Assembly (NCBI RefSeq): GCF_900119165.1
Contig: NZ_FPJG01000006.1
Span: forward strand, 1,550,001-1,614,000
Reading direction: 5' to 3'
DNA length: 64,000 nt
Source of the DNA: Amycolatopsis australiensis
GTDB lineage: Bacteria; Actinomycetota; Actinomycetes; Mycobacteriales; Pseudonocardiaceae
Both the position numbers and the translations under genes were made by a program. The notes below the pieces were generated by a model that was not told where the DNA came from, searched no databases, and saw only the letters and a program-made list of their open reading frames with translations. This document shows, piece after piece, positions 40,075 through 63,813 of this stretch (positions are counted from its first letter, which is position 1; each line of letters opens with the position of its first letter).

Positions 40075-40599
40075 ATGCCTCAGTTCTCGTTCGAAGGGCG
40101 CAGCCCGCAGGTCCACCCGGACGCCTTCATCGCTCCCACCGCCACGCTCATCGGCGACGTCGTCGTCGAGAAGGACGCCTCGATCTGGTACGGCGCCGTG
40201 CTGCGCGCCGACTTCGGCCGGATCGTCGTCCGGGAGGGCGCGAACGTCCAGGACAACTCGGTCGTGCACGTCAACGTCGGCAAGGTGTGCGAGATCGGGA
40301 AGAACGTGACCGTCGGCCACCAGTGCCTGGTGCACGACTGCACGGTCGGCGAGCAGGCCCTGATCGGGAACGGCTCCACCGTCCTGGACGACGCGAAGAT
40401 CGGCGAGCGGACGCTGGTCGCGGCGGGTGCCACCGTGACGCCGGGCACGGAGGTGCCGTCCGAGGTGGTCGCGATGGGCAGCCCGGCGAAGAAGTTCGTC
40501 CCGCTGACCGACTCCGCGCGGCTGTGGGTCGAGCACAACGCGGCCGTCTACCAGGACCTCGCGAAACGGCACAAGACCGGCGTCGAGCCGCTGGATTGA
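40075..40599 (+). CDS. Gamma-class carbonic anhydrase-like hexapeptide protein
   Basis: A 174-residue left-handed beta-helix protein of the gamma carbonic anhydrase/YrdA family. Hexapeptide turns are clear throughout (IGDVVV, VCEIGKNVTVGH, IGNGSTVLDDAKIG). The metal ligands are visible as VVHVN and VGHQCLVHD, three histidines in the expected spacing. The acidic loop of archaeal Cam is lacking, so activity may be weak or the substrate different. ATG 40075 follows a gene-free 150-bp repeat element. The stop codon lies within the -35 of the next promoter. Confidence 0.9.
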   Translation: MPQFSFEGRSPQVHPDAFIAPTATLIGDVVVEKDASIWYGAVLRADFGRIVVREGANVQDNSVVHVNVGKVCEIGKNVTVGHQCLVHDCTVGEQALIGNGSTVLDDAKIGERTLVAAGATVTPGTEVPSEVVAMGSPAKKFVPLTDSARLWVEHNAAVYQDLAKRHKTGVEPLD

Positions 40600-40632
40600 C
40601 TCTCCAGTAACTGGAGACTCTAGCTTCGGGGC
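40596..40632 (+). promoter_or_regulatory. MerR-type promoter/operator of the variant L11 gene
   Basis: TTGACT (40596-40601) and TAGCTT (40621-40626) are good -35 and -10 boxes separated by 19 bp, the overlong spacer that MerR-family activators correct by DNA distortion. The spacer holds a perfect palindrome, TCTCCAGT-A-ACTGGAGA (40601-40617). The ATG follows six bases after the -10, so the mRNA should be leaderless. Confidence 0.8.
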
Positions 40633-41061
40633 ATGGCTCCGAAGACGAAGAAGCAAACCCACCAGGTCACCCTGGAACTCACCGCGGGCAACGCCCCGGT
40701 CGTCGACCTCGGCAAGATGCTCGGGCAGACCGGGGTCAACCTCGTCGAGGTCAAGAAGGCCTACGACGCGGCGACGGCGGCCCAGCGCGGCGACATCGTG
40801 CCGGTGGTCGTCTCGGTGTTCGAAGACCGCTCGTTCGCGTTGCGGCTCAAGACGCCGCCGACGTCGTTCCTCATCAAGAAGGCGCTGGGGGACAAGGGTT
40901 CGGCCCGGCCCGGGCACGAGGTCGCCGGCAAGCTCACGCGGGAGCAGCTGCGCGAGATCGCCGAGCGCAAGCTGCCGGACCTCAACACCTCCGACGTCGA
41001 GGCGGCGATGCGCACGATCGCGGGCACGGCCCGGTCCATGGGCGTCGAGATCGTCGGCTGA
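40633..41061 (+). CDS. Divergent ribosomal protein L11 paralog
   Basis: A 142-residue L11-family protein. The C-terminal rRNA-binding domain is well kept (KLTREQLREIAERKLPDLN, EAAMRTIAGTARSMGVE). The N-terminal loop differs: where E. coli L11 has P20, P22, P23 and P26 in PSPPVGPALG, this protein has PVVDLGKMLG, keeping only the first proline, and it is one residue shorter just before. These prolines face the 23S rRNA and are sites of thiopeptide-resistance mutations. A standard rplK, expected next to rplA elsewhere, is not in this window, so this is almost certainly a second copy. It is regulated by the MerR-type promoter and followed at 1 bp by the CGNR-like gene. Confidence 0.88.
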   Translation: MAPKTKKQTHQVTLELTAGNAPVVDLGKMLGQTGVNLVEVKKAYDAATAAQRGDIVPVVVSVFEDRSFALRLKTPPTSFLIKKALGDKGSARPGHEVAGKLTREQLREIAERKLPDLNTSDVEAAMRTIAGTARSMGVEIVG

Positions 41062-41062
41062 G

Positions 41063-41467
41063 GTGCGCAAGCACGCGGTCGTGCCGCCGTTCCGCGCGCT
41101 GGACCCTGAACTCGGGGTCGCGGAACGGTTGCTGCGCAAGGAGAATCCGCAGCTGTGCGCCATCGTCGCGCAGCTGCCCGACGAACACGCGGCCGCGCGC
41201 CGCCTCAACGCCGTGCTGGCGGCGGCCGGGGCGCGGCCGCGGCTCGTCGACACGGGCGCGGCCTGGCGGATCGTCTACGTGACGCCGCGGCCCGGTGAAA
41301 GCGAGCTGGCCGCGGCCGCCGCGGGCCTGGCCGAACTGGTGACCGTCGGCGGCTGGCGGCGGGTGAAGCGCTGCGCGGTCTGCGCCCGGCCGTTCTGCGA
41401 CCGCACGTCGGGCTGCACCCGCAAGTGGTGCGCCGAACACCGTCGCGCCCCGCGCGGGGTGGACTAG
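41063..41467 (+). CDS. Small CGNR-like zinc-finger protein
   Basis: A 134-residue protein whose C-terminus, RCAVCARPFCDRTSGCTRKW followed by CAEHR, has the cysteine spacing of CGNR zinc fingers, but the terminal CGNR itself is replaced. The N-terminal ~95 residues are helical and Ala-rich and could be a reduced ABATE-type domain. GTG 41063 starts one base after the L11 paralog stop, so the two are co-translated. CGNR proteins are thought to be regulators; a function linked to the ribosomal paralog is possible but not shown. Confidence 0.65.
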   Translation: MRKHAVVPPFRALDPELGVAERLLRKENPQLCAIVAQLPDEHAAARRLNAVLAAAGARPRLVDTGAAWRIVYVTPRPGESELAAAAAGLAELVTVGGWRRVKRCAVCARPFCDRTSGCTRKWCAEHRRAPRGVD

Positions 41468-41474
41468 GCTCTTT

Positions 41475-41556
41475 CCGCAGCAGCGACTGGCGCCATCGAG
41501 GTGGAGCACCACCGGGAAGCGACGACGAGGCCGGCACCGCGCGCCTGGGTGAAGGC
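41475..41556 (+). promoter_or_regulatory. ZTP (pfl) riboswitch upstream of glyA
   Basis: The sequence has the two conserved halves of the pfl motif. The 5' part is GCGACTGGCGCC, then a GGTGGAGCACCACC stem-loop and GGGAAGCG (41483-41522). The 3' part is GCGCCTGGGTGAAGG (41541-41555). Together they form the pseudoknotted ZTP/ZMP sensor. glyA, which supplies one-carbon units for purine synthesis, is a standard target, so high ZTP (10-formyl-THF shortage) should raise glyA expression. Confidence 0.88.
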
Positions 41557-41578
41557 CATTCCAGAGCCGGAGCACGCC

Positions 41579-59827: not shown

Positions 59828-60772
59828 TCAGCCGCGCAGGGCCGCGATCATGAAGTCCACCGCCGGGCGGGTCGTCGGGAACGGGGGCCAGCCGTTGATG
59901 ATCCCCAGCAGCTCCCAGTACCGCTCGGCGCGCGGGTCGCCGCCCGCGGCGAAGCGGTCCGCCAGCTCTGCGCGGAACTCTGCCGAGGACGGGTCCTGGT
60001 CCGGCCGAGCCGAAGCCGCCGCGATCTCCGCCGCAAGCGTTTGCCCCGACTCCGACGTCGGGCTTTGCCCCGCGTCAAGCGCTTCCTGGGCGCGGGCCAT
60101 CCACGCGTTCCAGTTGTCGCGCCAGGCGTCCGCCGGCTGCTTGAACTCGCCCGACTTGATCTGGGCCGACTGCTGCTCGCTCATTCCGCGGATCAGCGCG
60201 CGGAAGTCCGCGTCCTGGATCAGCTCCGCGAACTCGATCCAGGCCTCCAGCTGCTCCGGCGACGGGTCGTCCGGCAGCTCCGGCTTCCCCGCGCGCATCC
60301 GGCGGTAGAACTCCTCGTCCACCTCCAGGCCGGAGACGATCTCGTCCCAGAACTCGTCGACCAGCCGCTTGCGCTCTTCGTCCGACATCGACGCCAGTCG
60401 GTTCATCAGTTTCACTTCCTCCAGCTCGGAACCACGCTTGGCCACCGCGCGCAGCACCGCCCGGCGCAGCCGGAGCCGCCGGATCTGCTCGTCCAGCGCC
60501 TCGACGTGCCGGGTCGCCAGCTCGCCGACGGTCGTCGCCTTCGTCAATGCCGCCGAGACGTCCGCGAGGCCCAGCCCCAGCTCCCGCAGCGTGCGGACCA
60601 GCTCGAGCCGGGCCATCGCCGCCGCGTCGTAGAGGCGGTAGCCGGCGTCCGTCCGCTCGGTCGGCGGCAGCAGGCCTTCGTCCGAATAGAAGCGGATCGT
60701 CTTGACCGGCAGGCCGGTCCGCCGGGCCAGCTCGCCGATGGTGAAGGTCGCGGTGGTGCCCACAAGACGCAT
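59828..60772 (-). CDS. MerR-family regulator with long C-terminal helical domain
   Basis: A 314-residue regulator. Residues ~10-80 form the MerR winged helix (FTIGELARRTGLPVKTIRF, then YSDEGLLPPTERTDAGYRLY), followed by the dimerisation coil. The remaining ~200 residues are helical and acidic, larger than in metal-sensing MerR and more like the ligand domains of TipA-type multidrug sensors, though I cannot assign them. ATG 60772 has GGAGAG six bases upstream. The same bases belong to a MerR-type palindrome just before the gene, so it is probably autoregulated; GTG 60763 is a possible leaderless start. It lies against the direction of the surrounding fol genes. Confidence 0.88.
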   Translation of the reverse strand: MRLVGTTATFTIGELARRTGLPVKTIRFYSDEGLLPPTERTDAGYRLYDAAAMARLELVRTLRELGLGLADVSAALTKATTVGELATRHVEALDEQIRRLRLRRAVLRAVAKRGSELEEVKLMNRLASMSDEERKRLVDEFWDEIVSGLEVDEEFYRRMRAGKPELPDDPSPEQLEAWIEFAELIQDADFRALIRGMSEQQSAQIKSGEFKQPADAWRDNWNAWMARAQEALDAGQSPTSESGQTLAAEIAAASARPDQDPSSAEFRAELADRFAAGGDPRAERYWELLGIINGWPPFPTTRPAVDFMIAALRG

Positions 60773-60776
60773 GGTG

Positions 60777-60801
60777 AACTCTCCAGTCGGGGGAGAGTCA
60801 A
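60777..60801 (-). promoter_or_regulatory. MerR-type operator at the start of merR, similar to the L11-paralog promoter
   Basis: Read on the minus strand, TTGACTCTCC-CCCG-ACTGGAGAGT matches the L11-paralog site TTGACTCTCC-AGTA-ACTGGAGACT at 19 of 24 positions, including both palindrome arms and the -35 box. It lies 4 bp before ATG 60772. Confidence 0.65.
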
Positions 60802-61323: not shown

Positions 61324-61392
61324 CGCTGGAATCCCACCGCTCGCGGGACCGAGTAGGTCTCGTTCGGATTACGAGCAGGTACGGTGTCAGGC

Positions 61393-63813
61393 ATGACCGG
61401 CGTGGGTGACGACTCGCGCGGCCGCCTCCTGGGCAGGCCGTGGCTTGTCGTCGGCTTTGTCCTCGCCATCGGAGCCACCCTCGCACTGGTGCTCAGCGAT
61501 GACCTCCGCTATCTCCGGCTGGGGATCGTCGCTGCCCTCTGGGCTGCCCTGATCGGCGCTTTCCTCGCCGTGAAGTACCGCAAGCACGCGGCACAGAGCG
61601 AGGACGCGGTCGCCGAGGCGCAGGCCGTGTACGAGTTGGAGCTGGAACGCGAGATCGCGGCCCGGCGCGAGTACGAGCTGGAGATGGAGGCGGAGACCCG
61701 CAACGCGGCCGAATCCAAGGGCCGCGAGGAGCTGGAGGCGCTGCGCGCCGAAGTGTCCGCGCTGCGCGAAAGCCTCCAGTCGCTGTTCGGCGGCGAGGTG
61801 CTGCTCGAACGCGTCGCGCTCACCGCGCAGGCGACCCGGATGCGCAAGGTCACCGACGAGAACCGCCTGGTCACCGACGGCGTCCCGAAGAAGAAGCCCG
61901 CCCAGCTGATGGCCGGCAAGAAGGCGGTCGAGCCGGGCGACCGGCCGACGGAGCTGATCGACCGCGTGCTCGACGAGCGCCGCCGCAAGGCGTCGAACGG
62001 CAAGCCCGCCAACGGCAAGGGCCTCGGCAAGAGCAAGGGCTTCGGCGGCAAGCCCGTCCCGAAGACGCCGGCCACGGTCTCCGTGCCGAGCACCCAGCAG
62101 CTGGCGCGGCCGAAGCCGTTGAGCGAACGCCGCCCGCCGGTGCCGCCGGTCGACCCGGCGCTGAACGCCGCGCAGCGCGAGCTGAAGGCCGCCGAGCTGC
62201 GGGCCGAGGCGGCACGTCGCCAGGCGGAGTCGCAGCCGATGCGGCTGCCGAAGCCGGACGAGGTCAACCAGCCCGAGCGCCGTCCGGACGCGGTCGCCGC
62301 CGAGCCGACGCGCCGCGACGTCCCGCGGCCGGAGCCCAAGACCGAAATCCGCCGGCCGGCCACGCCGGAGCCGAAGACGGAGATCCGCCGTCCCGAGCCG
62401 CCGCCCGCGCGACGGGCCGAGATGTCTCGCCCGGATTTGCCGCGGGTGGAGCGGCCGAGGCCTGCGGAGGTTTCCCGTCCGGACATTCCGCGGGTGGAGC
62501 GGCCGCGGCCGGCCGAGGTTTCGCGACCGGATTTGCCGCGGGTGGAGCGGCCGCGTCCGGCCGAGGTCTCGCGTCCGGATATTCCGCGGGTCGAGATGTC
62601 GCGTCCGGACATTCCGCGGGTGGAAATGTCGCGGCCGGACCTGCCCCGCGTGGAGCGGCCGCGGCCTGGCGAGGTCTCGCGTCCGGACATTCCGCGGGTG
62701 GAAATGTCGCGGCCGGACCTGCCCCGCGTGGAGCGGCCGCGGCCTGGCGAGGTCTCGCGTCCGGACATTCCGCGGGTGGAAATGTCGCGGCCGGACCTGC
62801 CCCGCGTGGAGCGGCCGCGGCCTGGCGAGGTCTCGCGTCCGGACATTCCGCGGGTGGAAATGTCGCGGCCGGACCTGCCCCGCGTGGAACGGCCGCGGCC
62901 TGGCGAGGTCTCGCGTCCGGATATCCCGCGAGTCGAGATGTCGCGGCCGGACCTGCCTCGGGTCGGCCAGCCGAACGGCGTGCGCAAGGGGCCCGAGCCG
63001 CCGCGGGGCGGGCCGGTTCCTCCGGTGAAGCCGTCCGAAATGTCGCGTTCGGACATCCGGCCGGTCAAGGACCTCAGCGCGGCTTTCCAGAAACGCGACG
63101 ACTTCGCCGAGCGGCAGCGCCCGAACCGGCCGAAGCCGCCCGAGCCGAAGACCCCGCCGACGCCGCGGGACGCCTCGCGCACCGACCTCCCGGTCGTCCC
63201 GCCGACGACGCCCGTGCCGAGCAAGAGCCCGCAGTCGCGCACCGACCTGCCCCCGGCCGTGCCGCCGACCACGCCGGTCCCGGCCGCCGATGGCCGCCCG
63301 CCGTCGCGGCTCGAGCAGTTCTCGCGGGCCGACATGTCGCCGATCCTCGACGAGCCGCCGTCCCGGCACGGTTCGCACCGCGCGCCTGTCGAGGCCGAGC
63401 AGGCCGACGCGCCCCTGGTGAACCCGACGCTTCCGGAGTCCGTGCGCAACTTCCAGGGCCGCTCGGGTGGCCGCCGCCGCAAGCCGGACGACTCGCAGCA
63501 GCTGCCCGCGGTCCCCGCGCCGGAGCCTTCGGGCGGTGGGCGGCGCCGTCGTCCGGACGGTGAACCGCCGGCGTGGGAGGGCATGGTCGCCGAGCGGGCG
63601 TCGATGTCGCGCCGCAACATGACACCGGTCGACCCGGCGGAAGCAGAGCAGAACGGCAACGGCACGAACGGCCACGCCCGCAACGGCGGCCGCCGTTCGG
63701 CGGACACCCCGGGCAGCGGCTCCCACACGGCGGGCCGCTCGGTGAGCGAACTGCTGGCCGCCAACGGCGGCACGGCGGCAACCCCGCGCCGACGCCGCCG
63801 CGCAGAGGACTGA
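61393..63813 (+). CDS. Membrane protein with coiled coil and long Pro/Arg repeat tail (Rv3604c-type)
   Basis: An 806-residue protein. Two membrane helices at about 12-60 are followed by an acidic-basic coiled coil (EAQAVYELELEREIAARREY onward to about 145) with a conserved FGGEVLLERVALTAQATRMR block, the part shared with the Rv3604c family. From about residue 340 to 525 the chain repeats EMSRPDLPRVERPRP-GEVSRPDIPRV, 26 residues per unit; the remainder is disordered and ends in RRRRRAED. TACGGT (61380-61385) lies seven bases before ATG 61393, so the gene may be leaderless. The cytoplasmic tail may bind partners; nothing is known. Confidence 0.85.
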   Translation: MTGVGDDSRGRLLGRPWLVVGFVLAIGATLALVLSDDLRYLRLGIVAALWAALIGAFLAVKYRKHAAQSEDAVAEAQAVYELELEREIAARREYELEMEAETRNAAESKGREELEALRAEVSALRESLQSLFGGEVLLERVALTAQATRMRKVTDENRLVTDGVPKKKPAQLMAGKKAVEPGDRPTELIDRVLDERRRKASNGKPANGKGLGKSKGFGGKPVPKTPATVSVPSTQQLARPKPLSERRPPVPPVDPALNAAQRELKAAELRAEAARRQAESQPMRLPKPDEVNQPERRPDAVAAEPTRRDVPRPEPKTEIRRPATPEPKTEIRRPEPPPARRAEMSRPDLPRVERPRPAEVSRPDIPRVERPRPAEVSRPDLPRVERPRPAEVSRPDIPRVEMSRPDIPRVEMSRPDLPRVERPRPGEVSRPDIPRVEMSRPDLPRVERPRPGEVSRPDIPRVEMSRPDLPRVERPRPGEVSRPDIPRVEMSRPDLPRVERPRPGEVSRPDIPRVEMSRPDLPRVGQPNGVRKGPEPPRGGPVPPVKPSEMSRSDIRPVKDLSAAFQKRDDFAERQRPNRPKPPEPKTPPTPRDASRTDLPVVPPTTPVPSKSPQSRTDLPPAVPPTTPVPAADGRPPSRLEQFSRADMSPILDEPPSRHGSHRAPVEAEQADAPLVNPTLPESVRNFQGRSGGRRRKPDDSQQLPAVPAPEPSGGGRRRRPDGEPPAWEGMVAERASMSRRNMTPVDPAEAEQNGNGTNGHARNGGRRSADTPGSGSHTAGRSVSELLAANGGTAATPRRRRRAED
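62419..62966 (+). repeat. 78-bp coding tandem repeat
   Basis: The unit beginning CTGCCCCGCGTGGAGCGGCC occurs at 62641, 62719, 62797 and 62875 with almost no changes, and more divergent half-units extend upstream to about 62419. It encodes 26 residues and so keeps frame. Near identity of the central copies indicates recent expansion. Confidence 0.95.

Follow-up and report, generated by a model that had tools for sequence, protein, structure and literature searches.

Why should a soil actinobacterium carry, besides its ordinary ribosomal protein L11, a second L11 in which the proline loop has been rewritten, and what would switch this gene on? The question is raised by a stretch of 64,000 nucleotides of Amycolatopsis australiensis (contig NZ_FPJG01000006.1, positions 1,550,001 to 1,614,000; the whole stretch analysed is called the window below), in which the gene of a variant uL11 of 142 aa, here named vL11, lies at 40633..41061 on the forward strand. 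L11 is near universal and its proline loop is regarded as fixed by function; vL11 is a conserved natural form with this loop rewritten. The gene stands behind a promoter of the MerR type, its operator is common with a MerR gene of TipAS/AlbA-like type, and some relatives lack canonical L11 altogether. From these features we favour, with a probability of roughly 0.57, the view that a drug-sensing MerR of the TipA/AlbA type swaps in vL11 as an L11 tolerant of thiopeptide-like inhibitors.

The vL11 gene was assigned from its open reading frame (ORF), from Pfam and NCBIfam profiles and by alignment to rplK. Its product is a uL11: both L11 domains are present (N-terminal, PF03946, 53.8-55.1 bits; C-terminal, 96.9 bits) and the score against the NCBIfam bacterial L11 profile TIGR01632 (146 bits) exceeds the cut-off of 141.85. 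Exactly two PF03946 matches were found in the whole 9.3-Mb genome, so that the doubt raised in the earlier note, namely that this might be the only L11 of the organism, does not apply. The other match, placed by ORFs and tblastn, is the normal rplK (locus L001), distant from vL11 and lying in the order secE-nusG-rplK-rplA. The two proteins are 52% identical. Where rplK reads NPAPPVGPALGQ, vL11 reads -APVVDLGKMLGQ, with one residue deleted, and the variant loop PVVDLGKMLG (40696..40725, forward strand) stands in place of PAPPVGPALG. V24, D25 and K28 of vL11 align to P22, P23 and P26, which we take to be E. coli numbering with the methionine counted. The alignment to the ribosomal-operon rplK, for which the earlier note had asked, together with the profile matches, upholds what that note had read from the letters: a distinct second L11-type gene with this loop, the replacement of three prolines by V, D and K after a one-residue deletion, and a conserved C-terminal rRNA-binding domain. 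Among the matches listed, the nearest proteins with a named source belong to Amycolatopsis.

The same kind of loop was observed in the best 120 of 7237 protein matches. The loop motif is present in 189 of 195 distinct vL11 proteins, all 189 having D or E at the P23 site and K at the P26 site. In the six others the motif fails just before the loop, save for one protein with V at the P23 site, and the lysine is kept in all six; an acid is found at the P23 site in all but one of the 195. For the tree, 150 proteins were reduced to 124 distinct ones and then to 80 representatives at 93% identity, the over-long ORFs L229 and L230 being excluded. vL11 (53 rows) and normal L11 (27 rows) fell on opposite sides of one branch supported at 100/100. 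Of 200 family genomes, 53 have the gene, counted as matches above 185 bits (the match ranking next scores 157), and among 396 genomes of the phylum, a sample which includes just two genomes of the family, it was found only in the source genome. Two types were distinguished among 80 named loci: type A, the form of the window and its kin (52 loci, Dactylosporangium L053 included), and type B, with the form EAGNAAMVDLGKMLGPTG (28 loci: L051, and L054-L083 minus L058, L066 and L075). The second-copy status of type A was checked in the family genomes and in seven named genomes. Judged by its sequences, vL11 is a conserved family and not the product of gene decay.

In 12 of the 53 family genomes with vL11, a single L11 match was obtained and it was of the vL11 type. 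These twelve genomes are 92-100% complete and five are single contigs; G023 is Actinoalloteichus caeruleus, G061 is A. spitiensis and G100 is Actinokineospora fastidiosa. When all candidates were scored again with PF03946, each of the twelve gave one match only, vL11-type, and the comparison genome G193 gave two. The interval from nusG to rplA was inspected in the twelve genomes and in the controls G000 and G193: rplK is absent from 12/12, with 80-190 bp remaining between the matched ends, and is retained in both controls. A hairpin-like stretch, GTGGGAGGGCC...GGCCCG..ACCAC, which we presume may be an L1 binding site, remains between nusG and rplA in the rplK-less genomes (L191, L193-L203). 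A further check covered 17 genomes behind named loci. One L11, again vL11-type, was found in all nine Actinoplanes-type genomes (three Actinoplanes and one each of Spirilliplanes, Nucisporomicrobium, Amorphoplanes, Mangrovihabitans, Jidongwangia and Pseudosporangium) and in Actinokineospora fastidiosa; the seven others (Dactylosporangium, Kutzneria, Saccharothrix, Pseudonocardia, Labedaea, Kibdelosporangium and Actinophytocola) have two. Altogether, 21 different genomes have a vL11-type protein alone. All sole-copy proteins that the tree includes lie inside a type B subclade (15 rows, 100/96) adjoining the Dactylosporangium second copy; its rows L060, L064, L065 and L073 come from genomes outside the sole-copy check.

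Barring an L11 that escaped recognition, an organism with a single L11 must use that protein in its ribosomes. It is thus well supported by gene content that vL11-type proteins can work in ribosomes, and by extension from type B the type A protein of the window probably does so too. The N-terminal domain has strongly diverged (55.1 bits to PF03946, vs 102.1), which would also suit a life outside ribosomes, as an L11-derived RNA-binding regulator or decoy; with the rRNA-binding domain intact and a vL11-type protein the only L11 found in 21 genomes, we hold such a role to be very improbable.

The next question is how the gene is controlled. A -35 element, TTGACT (40596..40601, forward strand), shares bases with the stop codon of the hexapeptide-repeat gene that lies upstream, and a -10 element, TAGCTT (40621..40626, forward strand), assigned by spacing statistics, follows a 19-bp spacer (40602-40620). 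The operator palindrome CTCCAGT-A-ACTGGAG (40602..40616, forward strand) fills spacer positions 1-15. A palindrome in a 19-bp spacer is the MerR layout, as in the known mer promoters, and the vL11 promoter has this dyad between its -35 and -10 elements. The ATG (40633) is located 6 nt past the -10 element, which makes the gene leaderless by position. Promoters were scored with the pattern TTGA[CG]n, spacer, TAnnn[TC], at spacings of 14 to 24. The 19-bp layout was detected at 46 of the 52 type A loci and the other spacings at none (0/52); in 38 of these 46 the start codon comes 6-8 nt after the -10 element, hence leaderless as well. Furthermore, the exact operator consensus occurs upstream of 25/52 type A loci vs 0/52 shuffled stretches. 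Given these counts, the architecture is not due to chance, and the leaderless gene with a palindrome in its 19-bp spacer, as first described from the window, was confirmed directly and is kept at most type A loci. Type B promoters have the form TTGACC-N18-TA (20/28 loci, about 80-90 nt upstream), and the 19-bp form is found in 0/28.

The candidate cognate regulator is encoded in the same window, 20 kb from vL11. This MerR-family gene (59828..60772, reverse strand) gives 314 aa from an ATG or 311 aa from the GTG at 60763, the leaderless GTG being the likelier start, and its helix-turn-helix domain matches PF13411 at 72.2 bits, as expected of the class. Its own promoter carries the same operator, TTGACTCTCCCCCGACTGGAG (60781..60801, reverse strand). 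This self-operator is conserved at ≤1 mismatch in all 30 best-scoring homologs (the window's merR counted) and, among 20 more distant ones hand-picked from the match list, in 17; the exceptions show 3, 3 and 6 mismatches, and shuffled stretches give 5 to 9. When the genome was scanned with the consensus TTGACYCTCCNNNNRCTGGAG, three exact sites were found in 9.3 Mb: before vL11, before merR and, at locus L120 (G000:C6:4716600-4716620, reverse strand), before a leaderless gene for a protease-like DUF2268 protein (predicted Zn protease). Allowing ≤2 mismatches gave five matches vs six for the reversed control, and weight is therefore given to the exact sites only. The operator also precedes similar DUF2268-like genes in eight further genomes, and in the 200 family genomes the operator combined with a -10 element was found 23 times (control 0), 13 times before vL11, 9 times before a DUF2268-like gene and once elsewhere. 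As a MerR gene adjoins vL11 at only 1/84 loci (L063), the linkage does not run through adjacency. MerR control of vL11 is strongly supported by these sequences, in line with the MerR-sensed signal proposed in the earlier note; the regulator is apparently autoregulated, and the protease-like gene may perhaps be its older target.

A regulon made up of a protease-like gene and a small regulator-like protein besides vL11 would also fit a stress programme. The MerR-sensed stress would then swap L11 in order to alter RelA activation or factor binding, yielding a ribosome that is relaxed or slowed, with drug tolerance as a by-product. We consider this unlikely, though with a real share of the odds, as lineages with a vL11-type L11 alone would stay in that state permanently and as the sensor resembles drug-binding domains. 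This resemblance concerns the C-terminal domain of the MerR, whose modelled fold is closest to the drug-binding domains TipAS and AlbA; a TipAS Pfam match at E ≤0.1 was obtained for 19/42 orthologs. A fold search with the whole protein gave matches confined to its N-terminal part, and Foldseek alone gave no match at E ≤0.001 for the C-terminal part.

Several observations weigh against the view that a TipA/AlbA-type drug sensor swaps in vL11. Foldseek of the C-terminal part gives TipAS at E 0.65 only, the MerR scores 18.5 bits vs the TipAS Pfam cut-off of 23.8, and it has 0 cysteines, hence none of the TipA reactive type. The merR gene with its operator is present in Amycolatopsis genomes without vL11 (G085, G107, G183), so what it senses may have nothing to do with L11. 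A different vL11 operator, of the CGTnACG type, is found in Actinophytocola, Saccharothrix and some Kutzneria, and merR of Actinophytocola and Kutzneria retains its own operator, so that another regulator must act in those lineages. The sole-copy proteins belong to type B, the sister form of the window's type A. Finally, the source genome shows 0 matches to the thiopeptide pyridine synthase (NF045556, E ≤1e-5).

The survey of the loop together with a MerR palindrome, proposed in the earlier note, accordingly gave a divided answer: at ≤1 mismatch, the merR-type operator is found at 31/52 type A loci and the CGTnACG type instead at 12/52, and some of the remaining operators fit neither well. A single conserved regulator for all vL11 genes was rejected on these counts and on the retained merR operator of Actinophytocola. 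The second operator, with a CGTnACG core in a 19-bp spacer, was seen before vL11 in Actinophytocola and Saccharothrix, at L030, L033, L038, L046, L047, L058 and L066, and the Kutzneria operators L035 and L050 look hybrid, the left half being merR-like CTCCA and the right half ACGTCAG.

A fold that is AlbA-like as well as TipAS-like, a cysteine-free MerR and a regulon that persists in genomes without vL11 would suit an inducer other than a thiopeptide, sensed in the AlbA manner, with vL11 guarding against some other inhibitor of the GTPase-associated centre or compensating ribosome damage. To us this is rather improbable, since the three replaced prolines are those used by thiopeptides: these drugs stack on the uL11 prolines, and mutations at those prolines confer resistance (PMC5960728, PMC9769715). 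That vL11 tolerates thiopeptide-like inhibitors is therefore plausible on analysis of the loop.

Across the family, NF045556 matches at E ≤1e-5 occur in 14/53 genomes with vL11 vs 16/147 without (Fisher p 0.012), and matches over the curated cut-off in 6/53 vs 4/147 (p 0.023); for sole-vL11 genomes the figures are 4/12 vs 26/188 others (p 0.086), relatedness being uncorrected throughout. Many of the sub-cut-off matches lie in long open frames, perhaps of lanthipeptide-type enzymes. For these two reasons the association of vL11 with thiopeptide clusters is weak, a hint only. Thiopeptide self-immunity in the source strain was rejected, its genome having no pyridine synthase match. Likewise, inspection by eye of the ORFs up to 6 kb from vL11 of Actinokineospora fastidiosa (L051) showed no thiopeptide cluster gene; in this genome (G100), two NF045556 matches, both sub-cut-off, lie on a different contig.

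The favoured mechanism would run as follows. The MerR (59828-60772) would bind TTGACTCTCCAnnnACTGGAG and, once bound to its ligand, activate the 19-bp-spacer promoter at 40596-40626; we infer this activation from operator identity and promoter geometry. The products would be vL11, its small co-directional neighbour and, from the distant site, the DUF2268 protease-like protein. vL11 would then take the place of normal L11 in the ribosomes, as suggested by the many relatives in which no L11 but a vL11-type protein was found. Inhibitors that stack on the prolines, thiopeptides first, would bind less, V, D and K having replaced P22, P23 and P26, and translation would go on. Actinoplanes and several lineages of Pseudonocardiaceae seem to have made the swap for good: there a vL11-type gene lacking this operator stands alone, and rplK is gone wherever the operon was inspected. 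A chromosomal, inducible drug-resistant ribosome, brought about by a TipA-like sensor outside any thiopeptide cluster, whose emergency L11 became fixed while rplK was deleted in Actinoplanes, Actinoalloteichus, Actinokineospora fastidiosa and others, is a tentative proposal to which we give slightly less than even odds. The interpretation offered in the earlier note is thus borne out in part: MerR control at the level of sequence, thiopeptide tolerance as a plausible reading.

Downstream of vL11, one nucleotide after its stop codon, a co-directional gene (41063..41467, forward strand) encodes the small protein of 134 aa, matched by 42 proteins, itself included. It had been described as a co-translated CGNR-like partner. 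The CGNR label is weak: the scores for PF11706 (12.3 bits) and for ABATE, PF07336 (22.3 bits), are both below cut-off. The protein is called ABATE/CGNR-like here, and it lacks the CGNR tetrad. Between this gene and one for serine hydroxymethyltransferase lies a ZTP riboswitch (RF01750, 41.2 bits, gathering 39; 41473-41557, forward strand). Elsewhere in the window, an ORF of 809 aa (61384-63813, forward strand) contains many near-identical repeats of the type RPDIPRVEMS.

If the proposal holds, whole genera live on an altered GTPase-associated centre, would be intrinsically tolerant of thiopeptides and may have a changed stringent response, and sequence could then predict this tolerance for many actinomycete genera. 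The gene is switched by an apparent antibiotic sensor, and the relatives without normal L11 amount to a natural experiment. Together they open to testing whether a core ribosomal protein is exchanged on demand for drug survival and, among factor binding, RelA activation and drug binding, which roles of the L11 loop are indispensable.

A genome-mining scheme counts rplK among its seven "resistance indicator" genes, marking it for instance in an Actinokineospora and a Saccharopolyspora and as minus in Amycolatopsis mediterranei, A. orientalis and Actinoplanes friuliensis; the variant loop is not described in the accessible part of that paper (PMC9290621). On natural thiostrepton resistance in Amycolatopsis or Actinoplanes, the accessible parts of PMC7460540 and of PMC11406533, which concerns an Actinokineospora thiopeptide, hold no usable statement. 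In the literature searched, which was covered in part, no report of a second L11 in these bacteria or of rplK loss was found; the parts are individually of known kinds, and neither their combination nor the displacement of rplK was met with there.

These parts can be compared with three known systems. Zinc starvation induces alternative ribosomal proteins, the C- paralogs under Zur. As proposed for vL11, the paralog is conditional and takes the place of a housekeeping ribosomal protein; unlike them, vL11 has a promoter of the MerR type, and L11 is not a zinc protein.

TipA captures thiopeptides via a cysteine and is portrayed as a minimal autoregulated system (PMC7762955). Like TipA and AlbA, the MerR of the window combines a MerR DNA-binding domain with a C-terminal domain whose modelled fold is nearest to TipAS and AlbA, and autoregulation appears, from its operator, to be common to it and TipA. 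It differs from TipA in falling below the TipAS Pfam cut-off and in being cysteine-free, and from both in about 70 additional residues ahead of the TipAS-like part and in its predicted target, a ribosomal protein.

The closest precedent for vL11 itself is TclQ of micrococcin clusters, which is said to replace L11 (PMC6804068) and has a proline-to-threonine change (PMC12724294). Cluster-bearing strains without the precursor gene show a minimal inhibitory concentration >100 ug/mL, which the authors credit to TclQ (PMC9927498), and TclQ/TclT are reported to protect the producer by replacing L11 (PMC6804068, PMC9927498, PMC12724294); according to the accessible part of PMC10704990, interaction of the thiocillin L11 paralog with the ribosome was untested. 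L11 genes annotated rplK occur on Staphylococcus plasmids (H77-H85) and on Macrococcoides pBac115 (H86), the two examined, of pBac115 and of an S. hominis plasmid, sitting in thiopeptide clusters; for Clostridioides, 12 plasmid-collection records match L11, 11 annotated rplK and one as a hypothetical protein. The loops of two plasmid TclQ-type proteins, PAPPVGTALGP and PAPPVGTVLGP, have lost P26, and the glutamine after LG is replaced by proline, as in type B. At the P26 site TclQ and vL11 carry different letters; as TclQ is 44% identical to vL11 and otherwise resembles normal L11, its change at this site is taken as independent. TclQ/TclT and vL11 have in common that a second L11 is changed at P26 within the thiopeptide loop. 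The two TclQ-type proteins keep P22 and P23 and are encoded inside thiopeptide clusters, whereas vL11 has all three prolines changed along with a one-residue deletion and is encoded outside any such cluster in a source genome that has no pyridine synthase match; in related organisms a vL11-type protein has displaced rplK.
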